Source: Citreicoccus inhibens
Lineage (GTDB): Bacteria > Myxococcota > Myxococcia > Myxococcales > Myxococcaceae
Assembly (NCBI RefSeq): GCF_019039035.1
Contig: NZ_JAHNZT010000013.1
Span: 62,001-126,000 of the forward strand
Direction: 5' to 3'
DNA length: 64,000 bases
A model generated the notes under the pieces. It was not told the DNA's origin. It ran no database searches and worked only from the letters and a program-made list of their open reading frames with translations. Shown here piece by piece: positions 38,936 to 43,227 of this stretch. Every line of letters begins with the position of its first letter. The first letter of the stretch is position 1. A program made the translations under genes and the position numbers.

Positions 38936-40492
38936 CTAGAGCCCAGCGACCTTGGCCGAGCTGGACACGGTGTAGCTGAACGACAGGGTCTGTTGCGAGC
39001 GGGGCTCCGCCTTCAGCTCGAAGCGCACGATGCCCTCGGCACTCACGCGCGTGGGAGCGGTCTGCGCCGAGTCCTTCACGAGCGCGACCTCCACGGCCGC
39101 GACCTCGGACACGGGGATGCGCTCCTCCAGGGCCAGGGCTTCCGGACGCGCGCCCATGTTGGACACAAAGAGCTTCACCTTGTGGGTCCGCGTGCGGCGG
39201 CTGGTGAGCATCCGCGTCTCCTCGGTCTCCTCCACCTGCCGGGCGATGCGCAGCGCGTCCTCGCTGCCGAAGCCCAGCTTCACGTGCTCGTTGCGTCCGG
39301 TGAACTTCAGCTGCGCGCGCCCCACGTAGCCGCTGGAGCGCACCAGGTCCACCGGGCCCGCGAGCAGGACCGAGGGCCCCACGTTCTCGAAGCGGGCCAC
39401 GCGGTGCACCAGGGGGGACTGCTCGGGACACGCCACCAGCTCCGAGCGAGCCGGCGCCGTGAAGAGCATCAAGGGGATCCGGTGCGGCTCACCGTTCGAG
39501 AGCACCTGGGCCGGATGCGGCGCGGCCAGCGTGAGCGCCTCGCCGCCGTCGTCCATCCCGGGCAGCGTGTCGGGCTTTCTCGAGTGCGTCGCCTCGCCCG
39601 TCGTCTGGATGACTTCCTCGCGCACGGACACGTCCACCACGCGCTTCTCGCGCTCGGACTTGTCGCGCAGCCAGAGCCAATCCTCGGCGAGCCGGGGAGG
39701 TGTCGCGCCGAGCGTGGGACGCGCGGTGGAGAACGTGAGGCCAACGTCCTTCCAGTCTTCTCCGGTGTGCTGCCACACCACGGCCTCGCACTCCACCGTC
39801 ACCTGCTCGCCGTTCTCCGTGGAGCGCAGCGTGGCGCGGTACGCCGGGCGCCAGGCCGCGCAGGGCACCAGATAGCTGAGCGTCACCGTGGTGGCTCCAC
39901 CGGTGGGGTGGTTCACCTCCAGCTCGGCCAGGGTGTCCATCTTCGGCTCGGGCTGGAGGGCCTGCGCCGCGGCGTTCTGGGCCTGATTGAGTTCGTGGGT
40001 CGCGGCCTCTTCGCGTTGCCGCGCCTCGCGCAGCTGGGCCTCCACCGCGTCGAGCTGCTCGCGGGCCAGACCCAGCTGTTCGCGCCATGTGACGGGATGG
40101 GCGTCGCCCACGCCGGTCTGCTCCGCGATGGCGCGGTACACATCCGCGCGAGCGCTCTGCAGGAGGCCCTGCTTGACGACGAGCCGCTGCACGTCCGCCG
40201 CGCGTCGCGCCTGCTCCTCCCTCAGCGTGGCCACGCGCCGCTCCACCTCCGTGCGCAGCGCCCGCTCGGCCTCGGGAGGTTGCGGGCGCGTCACCCGTCG
40301 CAGTCGGGCCTGGGAGACGACTCCACCGGACAGCCTGGCTTGGAGCGAGCGGTCCACCGCCACGCGAGGAAGTCCCTCGATGACGAGCCGCTGGGCGCCA
40401 GGGGCGAGGGTGACCTCGCCACGGCGCTCCACGAGCGCGCGGTCCTCCAGCAGGGTCACCTGGCTCACGGGCAAAGAGAGGGGCGCGTGCAT
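38936..40492 (-). CDS. DUF4139 (mucoidy-inhibitor MuiA-like) protein, compact copy
   Basis: 518 residues. The N-terminal DUF4140-like segment (V-T-L-L-E-D-R-A-L-V, about 11-20) leads into coiled-coil helices (about 85-185). The C-terminal DUF4139 half (about 200-515) is beta-rich and includes L-S-Y-L-V-P-x-A-x-W-x-P-x-Y, the family hallmark. There is no signal peptide, so the protein is predicted cytoplasmic, unless the N-terminus is longer. In E. coli MuiA overexpression affects mucoidy; no biochemical role is established. The start is the ATG that shares one base with the stop of the next DUF4139 gene (TGATG), so translation of the two is coupled. Confidence 0.82.
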   Translation of the reverse strand: MHAPLSLPVSQVTLLEDRALVERRGEVTLAPGAQRLVIEGLPRVAVDRSLQARLSGGVVSQARLRRVTRPQPPEAERALRTEVERRVATLREEQARRAADVQRLVVKQGLLQSARADVYRAIAEQTGVGDAHPVTWREQLGLAREQLDAVEAQLREARQREEAATHELNQAQNAAAQALQPEPKMDTLAELEVNHPTGGATTVTLSYLVPCAAWRPAYRATLRSTENGEQVTVECEAVVWQHTGEDWKDVGLTFSTARPTLGATPPRLAEDWLWLRDKSEREKRVVDVSVREEVIQTTGEATHSRKPDTLPGMDDGGEALTLAAPHPAQVLSNGEPHRIPLMLFTAPARSELVACPEQSPLVHRVARFENVGPSVLLAGPVDLVRSSGYVGRAQLKFTGRNEHVKLGFGSEDALRIARQVEETEETRMLTSRRTRTHKVKLFVSNMGARPEALALEERIPVSEVAAVEVALVKDSAQTAPTRVSAEGIVRFELKAEPRSQQTLSFSYTVSSSAKVAGL

Positions 40493-42723
40493 CAGGTCCT
40501 CCGGTTGCCGCCGTCGAGCATCTTCGCGGCGGGGATCTTGATGGTCCATGTGGCCTTCAGCGTCTGCGACTCACCGGGCTGTAGCGCCACGCGCCATGCC
40601 CGCTCTCCTTCCACAACCGTCTCACCCGGCAGCAGCGCACGCTTCTGCCAGCCGGGCGCGACCTCGGCCTCGTCGACCTTGATGTCCTTCTCCGAGGGGG
40701 GAACGACGGGCAGCCGCTCCTGCACCTCCAGCGTCACCCGATGGCCGAGCCGATTGGCCACGTCGATGAGGACCTGATGCGTGAGCAGCGTGTTGCCGCC
40801 GAACATGCCGCCCGAGGCTTCATCGAAGCGGGTGTTGCGAGCGACCTTGATGGCCTCCTCGACGCCCAGGCCCAAGCGCTGCGTGGCGCCTGGCGCCAGG
40901 GTGGGCAGGGGAGACGTCATGAGGAACTCCTCGCCGAGCGTCACGTCCACTGGCCCCGCGAGGAGCGGGTGCGCGGTCCGGTTCTCGATGCGCAGGGTGC
41001 GGAACGCGCGGGGCTCCACCGAGGGCACGCAGAGGTACTCGGCGACGAGGCCCACGGGGACGGCGAGCAGGGGCACCGTGTGCCACGCCCCATCCGAGGG
41101 AACCTCCGCGCGCGCCTCCACCTCGAAGCGCGCGTCGAAGTGCTGCGCGGACTCGCGCGGGGGGACGGTCCAGGTGGGCGCCGGCACGTTGTGGATGCCT
41201 CGGGCCCGTTGCTCTTGCGTGGCGAGCAACGTGACGACATCGACCTGGACACGAACGGCCGTGAGCGCGAGCAGCTCTCGCGAGGCGTCCGTGGGGCGTG
41301 GGCGCAGGCGACCGCGTGCCCCGGGGACCTCGGCCGACATCAGCGTGAGTTGCTGATAGTCGAGCAGCGACTCAGAGACCTCCAGCCGCGGCTCCGAGAC
41401 GTCCTGGCTCGGCGAGGGGGCTCCGCCCTCGTCGTCGAGAGCCATCTCGGGCTCTCCGCCAAAGCTCGGCTCGTCCGCTTCCATGAGCAGCTCTTTGGGC
41501 GCGGGCTCCGCGCTGCGCTTCTTGCTCTTCTCCTGGTTGCGCATCATCCCGCCGCCGCGAGAGGACGCGGGCGCGATGGCCTGCGCCGGAGCGGCGGGGC
41601 GCGAAGGGGAGGGCAGGCCGCCCCCGGGCGCTGGGGCACGCGGGGGCGGCGGGGGGACGGGCATCGCGCCGTCCATCGCCCCGTAAGTGGCGATGTTCGC
41701 GACCGCGTCGCGCGGCGCCGAGCCTCCACCGACGCGAAGGTCTGGCATGTTCTTGGGCGCCGCGGCGGGGGGCGACATCGGCTTTCGCGGGCGCACCGGC
41801 GGGGGCGCGCTGTCGTAGCCCGCGAACAGCTCATCCAGTCCCGCGGCCGGTTCGCGCCAGCCCGAGCGGGGAGGAGGAGGTTGGCTGCGGCCGATACGCA
41901 GCGCCTTCAGCTCGGGCACCTCCGCGCGTCGCTCCAGGTCCGCCGTGGACACCGACAGGCGCACGCCGCTCCAGTCCTCGCCCGTAAGCTGGAGCACCGA
42001 GGCGCGCATGCGCAGCGTGCCGTCCTGCAACGAGCGCGGCAGCCGCAGGTCATACGTGGGCACCCAGCGCGCCCCGGTGACGGCGTACTCCAGCGCGATG
42101 CGAGCGGGGCCCTCCGAGGTCAACGGCCCCGCCAATGACAGCACCGCCGCGCGATACAGCTGCGCGCGCTGGCCTCGCGCCGCGCCGGACTGCTCGCGGA
42201 TCCGCGCGCGGCGAAGGTCCAGCTCGGCCTGGGCATCGCGCTCCTCGCGTTCCAACTCCAGCCGCCGCGAGCTCAGCGCGGACAGCTCCGCGTCCACGAA
42301 CTCCGCCAGCGCGAGCGTCGCGGACAGCGGCGTCTGTCGCGGTGGCTCGCCCTTGCGGTTCGGGAGCGCGGTGGGCTTCAGCTCCATCAGTTCCTGGATG
42401 TCGCGCCGCGTCTGCTCCAGCCGGGCGCTCACGTCGGCGCGGGCTCGCTCGGCGCGCTCCAGGGCGTGGCGCTCAGCGGGCAGATCCGCTTCGGTGGGGA
42501 GCCGCACGTCGAAGAGTGGCTGGATGCCACGCACGACCAGGCCCGCGGGCCCTTCCACCACGCGGGCGCGAAGCGAGCCCACGCGCAGCGACAGGGGCAA
42601 TCCTTCGATCCTCACCTCCGCGGGGAAGCGGCCTCCCTCGCTGGGCACGGAGAGGAGGCGGGTGCACAGCGCTCCCTCCGCGTGAACGGTGACCGCATCC
42701 AAGACGGACGGAACAACTGGCAT
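40492..42723 (-). CDS. DUF4139 protein, long copy with central low-complexity insert
   Basis: 743 residues with the same plan as its downstream partner: a DUF4140-like N-terminus (about 8-75), helical coiled coil (about 90-200) and DUF4139 core with A-L-E-Y-A-V-T-G-A-R-W-V-P-T-Y (about 222-236). An insert of roughly 200 residues (about 285-470), rich in Pro, Ala, Gly and Ser, splits the core. Coding from an ATG with GAGGGGG upstream. The N-terminus has no signal peptide. The coupled arrangement suggests that the two paralogues form a heteromer. Their role in the envelope or exopolysaccharide is inferred only from the E. coli name. Confidence 0.8.
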   Translation of the reverse strand: MPVVPSVLDAVTVHAEGALCTRLLSVPSEGGRFPAEVRIEGLPLSLRVGSLRARVVEGPAGLVVRGIQPLFDVRLPTEADLPAERHALERAERARADVSARLEQTRRDIQELMELKPTALPNRKGEPPRQTPLSATLALAEFVDAELSALSSRRLELEREERDAQAELDLRRARIREQSGAARGQRAQLYRAAVLSLAGPLTSEGPARIALEYAVTGARWVPTYDLRLPRSLQDGTLRMRASVLQLTGEDWSGVRLSVSTADLERRAEVPELKALRIGRSQPPPPRSGWREPAAGLDELFAGYDSAPPPVRPRKPMSPPAAAPKNMPDLRVGGGSAPRDAVANIATYGAMDGAMPVPPPPPRAPAPGGGLPSPSRPAAPAQAIAPASSRGGGMMRNQEKSKKRSAEPAPKELLMEADEPSFGGEPEMALDDEGGAPSPSQDVSEPRLEVSESLLDYQQLTLMSAEVPGARGRLRPRPTDASRELLALTAVRVQVDVVTLLATQEQRARGIHNVPAPTWTVPPRESAQHFDARFEVEARAEVPSDGAWHTVPLLAVPVGLVAEYLCVPSVEPRAFRTLRIENRTAHPLLAGPVDVTLGEEFLMTSPLPTLAPGATQRLGLGVEEAIKVARNTRFDEASGGMFGGNTLLTHQVLIDVANRLGHRVTLEVQERLPVVPPSEKDIKVDEAEVAPGWQKRALLPGETVVEGERAWRVALQPGESQTLKATWTIKIPAAKMLDGGNRRT

Positions 42724-42816: not shown

Positions 42817-43227
42817 TCAGAACAGCGACAGCTGCGTGCTCGCCCCGCCCTGTGGCGTCTTGGGCGGCAAGGGATGGAAGCCGCGCGCGCGGGCCCACTC
42901 CTCGGTGGGGCCTGCCCACTGGTGCACGCTCATGAGCACGTGGCCCTTCTCATCAAAGCCCACGCCTTCCTCCTCGAGCCGCTCCTTCTGGCCGTGGCCC
43001 GAGGTGCTGATGCCCCCGGTGCGATTGATGATCCGCTGCCAGGGGCAGGTCGCCGCGCGAGCGCCCAGCGCGGCCATGGCATGCCCCACGATTCGCGCAT
43101 CGCAGCCGTCCCCGACAATGGTCGCGATGTCGCCGTAGGTGGACACCTGTCCGCGAGGGACCTCCTCGCAGACCCTAAAGATGCGCTCGTAATAGTCGCG
43201 CTCGTCGCGTGCGGTGGGGGTGCTCAT
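42817..43227 (-). CDS. alkyltransferase-like (ATL) DNA-damage recognition protein
   Basis: 136 residues, the size of the DNA-binding domain of O6-methylguanine-DNA methyltransferase. Helix-turn-helix and recognition motifs are kept (V-P-R-G-Q-V-S-T-Y-G-D-I-A and R-I-V-G-H-A-M). The active-site P-C-H-R is P-W-Q-R here (Trp at residue 63). This Cys-to-Trp swap defines ATL proteins such as S. pombe Atl1, which bind alkylated guanine and hand it to nucleotide excision repair without alkyl transfer. An extra Cys (61) precedes the motif. It has a clean ATG start and stands alone. It ends 94 bases from the DUF4139 start on the same strand. Confidence 0.87.
   Translation of the reverse strand: MSTPTARDERDYYERIFRVCEEVPRGQVSTYGDIATIVGDGCDARIVGHAMAALGARAATCPWQRIINRTGGISTSGHGQKERLEEEGVGFDEKGHVLMSVHQWAGPTEEWARARGFHPLPPKTPQGGASTQLSLF

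Follow-up and report, generated by a model that had tools for sequence, protein, structure and literature searches.

A translationally coupled pair of MuiA/DUF4139 paralogues in Citreicoccus inhibens, possibly the two subunits of a cytoplasmic complex

The window analysed here, a stretch of 64,000 nucleotides (nt) from the myxobacterium Citreicoccus inhibens (contig NZ_JAHNZT010000013.1, positions 62,001 to 126,000), carries on its minus strand two adjacent genes whose products, P0001 and P0002, combine the domains DUF4140 and DUF4139. This pair is a real, old and conserved two-gene unit, with a leaderless branch (devoid of signal peptides), to which the window pair belongs, and an exported one. 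As for its role, we lean, with a little more confidence than doubt, towards the view that P0001 and P0002 together make up an obligate heteromeric MuiA/DUF4139 complex of two subunits, a cytoplasmic and non-enzymatic scaffold or adaptor.

Layout and spread of the pair

The upstream gene (40492..42723, minus strand) codes for the long subunit P0001, 743 amino acids (aa), and the downstream gene (38936..40492, minus strand) for the short subunit P0002, 518 aa. They are joined by a compact junction (40490..40502, minus strand). In the sequence TGATG, at 40494-40490, the stop codon TGA of P0001 and the start codon ATG of P0002 have base 40492 in common, while a GGAGG ribosome-binding site, at 40498-40502, stands five bases ahead of this ATG, inside the last codons of P0001, those of its terminal NRR. 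In both proteins DUF4140 is followed by DUF4139: the Pfam scores are, for P0001 and P0002 respectively, 34.4 and 52.1 bits for DUF4140 (cut-off 27), and 113.9 and 131.3 bits for DUF4139 (cut-off 31.8). The NCBIfam family TIGR02231, MuiA, is matched at 200.2 and 250.1 bits (cut-off 112.6). The profiles of the two proteins align with each other over their full length as those of homologues (hhalign probability 99.9, 25% identity, 482 columns). Because the domain and family scores exceed their cut-offs, the profiles align and the overlap is there to be seen, the original prediction of two coupled genes with a DUF4140/coiled-coil/DUF4139 architecture and a one-base overlap is confirmed.

The genome of C. 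inhibens has four DUF4139 places, arranged as two tandem pairs. Among 60 relatives the domain was found in 43, with one match in 7 of them and two or more in 36. Forty loci chosen for two adjacent matches, together with the two pairs of the own genome, make a set of 42 paired loci, and in every one of these selected loci (42/42) the longer gene lies upstream, in the same order and on the same strand, more often than chance would give. The lack of conservation that would have counted against the original prediction is not what is seen. The genes overlap by −1 or −4 in 20 of the 42, and a candidate start lies at most 28 nt from the stop in the rest. At the level of the phylum, DUF4139 is present in 144 of 193 genomes, and pairs occur beyond the family of the window too. 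When the downstream alignment was used to scan a species collection, 62 loci came up. Both genes are present in 59; in L108 and L132 the start of the contig truncates the locus, and L137 matches weakly and in part. Of the 62, 20 belong to Streptomyces, Kitasatospora or Peterkaempfera, and these are 40-44% identical to P0002. Of 198 genomes sampled from the actinobacterial phylum, 6 had a match, 5 of them over the cut-off, and the adjacent pair is there in all five, one being the chosen centre genome. Two Streptomyces plasmid records also carry the pair, one together with a MOBP relaxase.

Several observations came along with this survey. On the plasmid of Streptomyces sp. NBC_01001 (L151:5863-11542), typed as mobilizable, a DNA alkylation repair gene sits two genes before a leaderless pair. 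A record titled Comamonas sp. KCTC 72670 (L091) holds a pair of class A, whose identity to P0002 is 62%, within a Myxococcus-like neighbourhood; the title may be wrong. No relatives were found in viral contigs or phage records, and a phage origin was rejected, PHROGs giving only a coiled-coil-like match (E 0.064). Nothing of note pointed to a known anti-phage defence system: PADLOC had no match for P0001, and for P0002 only a JetC coiled coil (E 0.19).

A conserved and coupled pair of distinct paralogues is most simply a heteromer, and on this point the original prediction was probably right. Translational coupling would then supply the subunits in matched amounts. It might be argued that we deal with co-expressed paralogues, each with separate partners or forming homomers, that are adjacent only for coordinated dosage. 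Single-copy DUF4139 proteins presumably do act without a partner, since a single match is all there is in 7 of the 43 positive relatives and muiA of Pseudomonas aeruginosa stands alone; furthermore, the physical interaction between P0001 and P0002 is one that we infer. We nevertheless hold this explanation to be rather unlikely, as the two genes have remained side by side in two phyla whose loci have hardly any other gene in common, as both subunits appear to have changed compartment together, and as clade-specific motifs are found in both.

Insert, conserved segments and predicted structure

Within DUF4139, P0001 has a Pro/Ala-rich and mostly unfolded insert (residues about 266-530; 41134..41928, minus strand). 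It measures 285 residues, from LSVSTA to VPSDG, and the predicted local distance difference test (pLDDT) of the AlphaFold model is mostly below 50 at residues 316-449. Across the 42 pairs, 162-301 residues separate the two conserved strands in the upstream protein and 66-76 in the downstream one (one upstream open reading frame (ORF), that of L042, is cut). In the set used for the tree described below, with slightly different anchors, the distance is 261-321 aa in leaderless upstream proteins, 184-269 in exported upstream ones, 72-84 in downstream proteins and 77-97 in single-copy ones. The downstream lengths being near the single-copy lengths, it is probably the upstream subunit that gained an insert. 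The long insert that had been noticed in the upstream copy is therefore real, but it is not a peculiar split of that copy, being instead a hallmark of upstream subunits wherever the pair occurs. In exported upstream proteins it holds a CarboxypepD_reg domain in three of the four that were scanned, including that of the second pair of the own genome (L005:9455-11626, contig C53), where PF13620 lies inside the DUF4139 loop, as it does in L036 and L066. The upstream protein of L075, which is class B-like, has long aspartate runs in its insert. When the insert motif of P0001 was sought elsewhere in the own genome, only chance-level matches came up.

Three segments are conserved and at the same time predicted to be unfolded. 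The first, at the beginning of the insert, is the motif VPELKALRIGRxQPxPPxSGWREPxxGLDELFAGYD (P0001 residues 269-304; 41812..41919, minus strand), present in leaderless pairs only. Within it, RIG[RK]xQ is found in 69 of 84 leaderless upstream ORFs and in none of 32 exported ones; of the 15 that miss it, 14 are cut at contig ends, judging by their length (243-416 aa), and one (L127) is not. The second is the C-terminal tail GGNRR of P0001 (residues 738-742; 40498..40512, minus strand), which reads GG[NT]RR in 82/84 leaderless and 0/32 exported upstream ORFs, the two leaderless exceptions being L098, a broken ORF, and L127, with GGDRR. The third belongs to P0002 and occupies the same position of DUF4139 as the upstream insert: a loop (residues 259-320; 39533..39718, minus strand) with an invariant RE and PGxDDGG; A3 shows no variation at P311, G312 and D314-G317. 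When the downstream motif is defined more strictly, with a final E, 64 of 86 leaderless rows have it, but hardly any of the actinobacterial ones.

In figures, conservation reaches 0.82-0.84 over upstream residues 271-300, at a pLDDT of 46-61, against 0.63 in well-folded blocks, and 0.80-0.83 over the upstream tail 731-743, at a pLDDT of 49-63. Downstream, residues 261-320 except 301-310 show 0.64-0.83 at a pLDDT of 30-51, and residues 311-320 show 0.83 at a pLDDT of 51, against 0.64 in well-folded blocks. Segments that are conserved yet predicted to be unfolded make candidate docking sites, either between subunits or to a client. The conserved DUF4139-loop segment of each subunit, unfolded when alone, would fold upon binding the partner subunit or a common client, and in the upstream subunit the long flexible Pro/Ala-rich linker that comes after the segment would give it reach, the C-terminal tail being nearly invariant. 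In most of the leaderless pairs compared, the NRR codons of this tail (CGG AGG) also serve the downstream gene as its ribosome-binding site. The tail is kept as protein, because L075 retains it though its codons form no GGAGG.

The AlphaFold2 monomers, with a pLDDT of 83 and a predicted template modelling score of 0.62 for P0002, and of 76 and 0.59 for P0001, share one plan, in which a long antiparallel hairpin comes between an N-terminal beta domain and further beta structure at the C-terminal end. The coiled-coil hairpin spans residues 81-184 of P0001 (42172..42483, minus strand) and residues 73-178 of P0002 (39959..40276, minus strand), and its structural matches are generic hairpins. For neither model did Foldseek find a PDB match at E <= 0.001, and sequence searches for solved relatives gave only coiled coils and marginal matches. 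In VIA-align the lists were filled by generic hairpins, and because of this the beta parts were barely tested there; the C-terminal beta part of P0001 has a weak match to the C-terminal domain of AP-4 mu4 (Z 7.1, 84 residues, root-mean-square deviation (rmsd) 2.8). Among the downstream residues that are invariant in both compartments, mostly W, P and G with charged residues here and there, no catalytic set was recognised by inspection, and a catalytic role was set aside as not suggested by these residues.

These models bring to mind a peptide-binding, chaperone-like clamp, with hairpins acting as prefoldin tentacles do, rather than a fixed scaffold. The upstream hairpin indeed matches archaeal prefoldin beta (Z 10.1, 100 residues, rmsd 3.8), and the AP-4 mu4 domain just cited binds cargo. 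By the tool's own standard, however, Z values of this size are common where long helices or beta domains are compared. Hairpin proteins without any relation score alike, and we see this clamp as improbable.

Compartment, neighbouring genes and history

The heteromer that we favour would be cytoplasmic. Judged by eye and with a simple hydrophobicity index, neither P0001 nor P0002 has a signal peptide, and there is no space for one, as only about ten residues at most precede the strands of DUF4140. Both proteins are likewise leaderless in classes A, A' and B, in the actinobacterial pairs and in L163 and L167. Both have hydrophobic, signal-peptide-like starts in class C pairs and in most pairs outside the family; L155_up, a cut ORF, and L072_dn, with no clear start codon before its hydrophobic stretch, were assigned to the exported kind on the strength of their partners. 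The ten single-copy MuiA proteins examined all have a signal-peptide-like N-terminus (10/10), in contrast with both window proteins; this is a trait common in the family, which the databases do not use to define it.

The original prediction had placed the pair in an envelope or surface system together with a small neighbouring barrel. This barrel, P0003 (38306..38917, minus strand), is a small predicted outer-membrane protein whose match to OMP_b-brl stays below the threshold (21.9 bits, cut-off 28.7), and it does follow the pair on the same strand, after 18 nt. To this may be added that in some Myxococcus and Pyxidicoccus loci the pair is followed by a small protein, apparently unrelated, whose start resembles a signal peptide, that the paralogous pairs look exported, and that two papers link P. 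aeruginosa MuiA to envelope stress and biofilm (PMC10418997, PMC7603352). Relatives of P0003, however, occur in 2 of the 42 loci (the window and L038, of the same genus), in none of the 62 named loci, and once in the own genome; counted otherwise, they are in one of 103 other loci examined, some places belonging to both sets. It thus appears as a genus-level neighbour, outside the conserved unit. The barrel was rejected as a partner on account of this rarity, a forced alignment with the downstream protein of Myxococcus and Pyxidicoccus giving 24-30% identity that BLAST did not support. In other clades its place is taken by a hydrolase-like or a DUF952 gene. Moreover, neither window protein has a signal peptide. 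Streptomyces and Kitasatospora are monoderm, that is, they have no outer membrane. Since the leaderless pair is also there, the envelope link is unsupported for the window pair, and we regard an envelope or surface system built with the barrel as very improbable. An envelope-type localisation does fit the exported paralogous pair of the same genome (C53, L005).

The other neighbours vary. After the pair comes a small secreted-looking protein in Myxococcus and Pyxidicoccus, and an alpha/beta hydrolase, by eye, in Corallococcus. At actinobacterial loci one small gene family follows it in 18 of 20, the scanned member being DUF952. Besides the pair, a single cluster is shared between Myxococcota and the set of 20 actinobacterial loci: it is oxidoreductase-like and present at one actinobacterial locus, with about 30% identity and 5.6 kb away. 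Because no other cluster than this generic family spans them, only the pair itself is kept across phyla. Just upstream of the window pair, on the same strand, lies a short Ogt/AGT-like protein (42817-43227, minus strand) that has PWQRI at the place where alkyltransferases carry PCHRV, so that this is probably an alkyltransferase-like protein. Such a gene recurs near the pair in several Myxococcaceae loci: among the 19 named class A loci that extend 3.5 kb or more upstream, 8 have it, but none of the actinobacterial loci does. It was rejected as an operon partner and is read as family synteny, because its distance varies and it is absent from actinobacterial loci. A search for promoters and terminators gave nothing above chance.

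The history of the pair was followed with an unrooted tree (IQ-TREE, quick mode; 106 rows, 509 columns) of 48 pairs and 10 single-copy MuiA proteins. The pairs come from 29 of the 42 paired loci, 4 actinobacterial loci and 15 further ones; L170, which is the same gene as L010, and L172, which is cut, were left out. All 48 downstream proteins fall in one clade (99 in the Shimodaira–Hasegawa-like approximate likelihood ratio test) and all 48 upstream proteins in another (97), with the single-copy proteins between them. The leaderless rows make one group on each side, 22 rows each, with support of 100 and 100, and for this reason one change of compartment per subunit suffices. Path lengths of upstream and downstream proteins are correlated over the 48 pairs (r = 0.975; 0.962 within the leaderless and 0.959 within the exported pairs), and the two trees have 32 of 45 splits in common. 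As all ten single-copy proteins look exported, going from export to the cytoplasm is the simplest direction. The unit would have originated in one duplication of an exported MuiA-like protein, both subunits later losing their signal peptides together. A wider scenario, on which our belief and our doubt are evenly balanced, is that an ancient exported DUF4139 heteromer of Myxococcota gave a cytoplasmic version through the loss of both signal peptides and the acquisition of new, nearly invariant docking segments (the loop RIGRxQPPPxxxGWRxPPxGLxxLFxxYD and the tail GGNRR upstream, the loop PGxDDGG downstream), and that the two genes were then exchanged as a unit between Myxococcota and Streptomyces/Kitasatospora, partly by way of plasmids, no other specific feature being shared.

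A number of points weigh against the cytoplasmic heteromer and its history as we have put them together. The structure predictions cover monomers only, and it is from the pairing that we infer a physical heteromer. The term 'non-enzymatic scaffold' would follow from the architecture and from the lack of a recognised catalytic motif, next to a Foldseek search that stayed empty at its threshold. Low pLDDT in the conserved segments may come from shallow alignments (59 and 41 rows). The hydrophobicity index overlaps slightly between the classes, L053_dn, at 2.01, being counted leaderless and L036_dn, at 2.0, exported. Correlated upstream and downstream trees are expected for any linked genes and do not by themselves prove interaction, while the direction from export to cytoplasm is read from a tree that is unrooted.

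A two-subunit DUF4139 unit placed in one compartment, with named candidate docking segments, would open the way to concrete tests, and these are feasible in tractable hosts such as Myxococcus xanthus or Streptomyces. If true, a move from outside to inside with both subunits kept would be a useful case for understanding how protein complexes are re-sited.

Relation to known MuiA proteins

F37C4.5 of Caenorhabditis elegans is presumably a DUF4139 protein. According to one study, it co-purified with KRI-1, and its knock-down left radiation-induced apoptosis unsuppressed (PMC6470173). DUF4139/MuiA proteins were seen in bacteria and archaea among the control genomes, and the literature reports them in eukaryotes as well (a nematode, Leishmania). 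In P. aeruginosa, as two papers report, the sigma factor SbrI promotes transcription of muiA; MuiA inhibits swarming, enhances biofilm formation and has an effect on alginate too; and SbrI and MuiA rise upon osmotic shock, D-cycloserine or overexpression of CtpA (PMC10418997, PMC7603352). The portions of the literature that were searched contained no paper on paired DUF4139 proteins and gave no molecular function for DUF4139/MuiA.

The window pair has the domains of the MuiA family (TIGR02231; PF13600 and PF13598), in the same order and above the cut-offs. P. aeruginosa MuiA, at 24-25% identity to P0002, is a lone gene product with a signal-peptide-like N-terminus (L153) and a loop within the single-copy range of 77-97 aa, whereas the window has two dedicated leaderless subunits, one of them with a loop of 285 aa. 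The exported pair of the same genome (C53, L005) shares the two-gene order and the plan of a long upstream and a short downstream protein; it differs in the signal-peptide-like N-termini of both proteins, in another loop motif and tail, and in the CarboxypepD_reg domain of its loop (41.3 bits, cut-off 32.3). With the Streptomyces/Kitasatospora pair, found also on Streptomyces plasmids, the window has almost no neighbours in common, but that pair is leaderless and has the same gene order, the RIGRxQ motif and the GGNRR-type tail, just as in C. inhibens.

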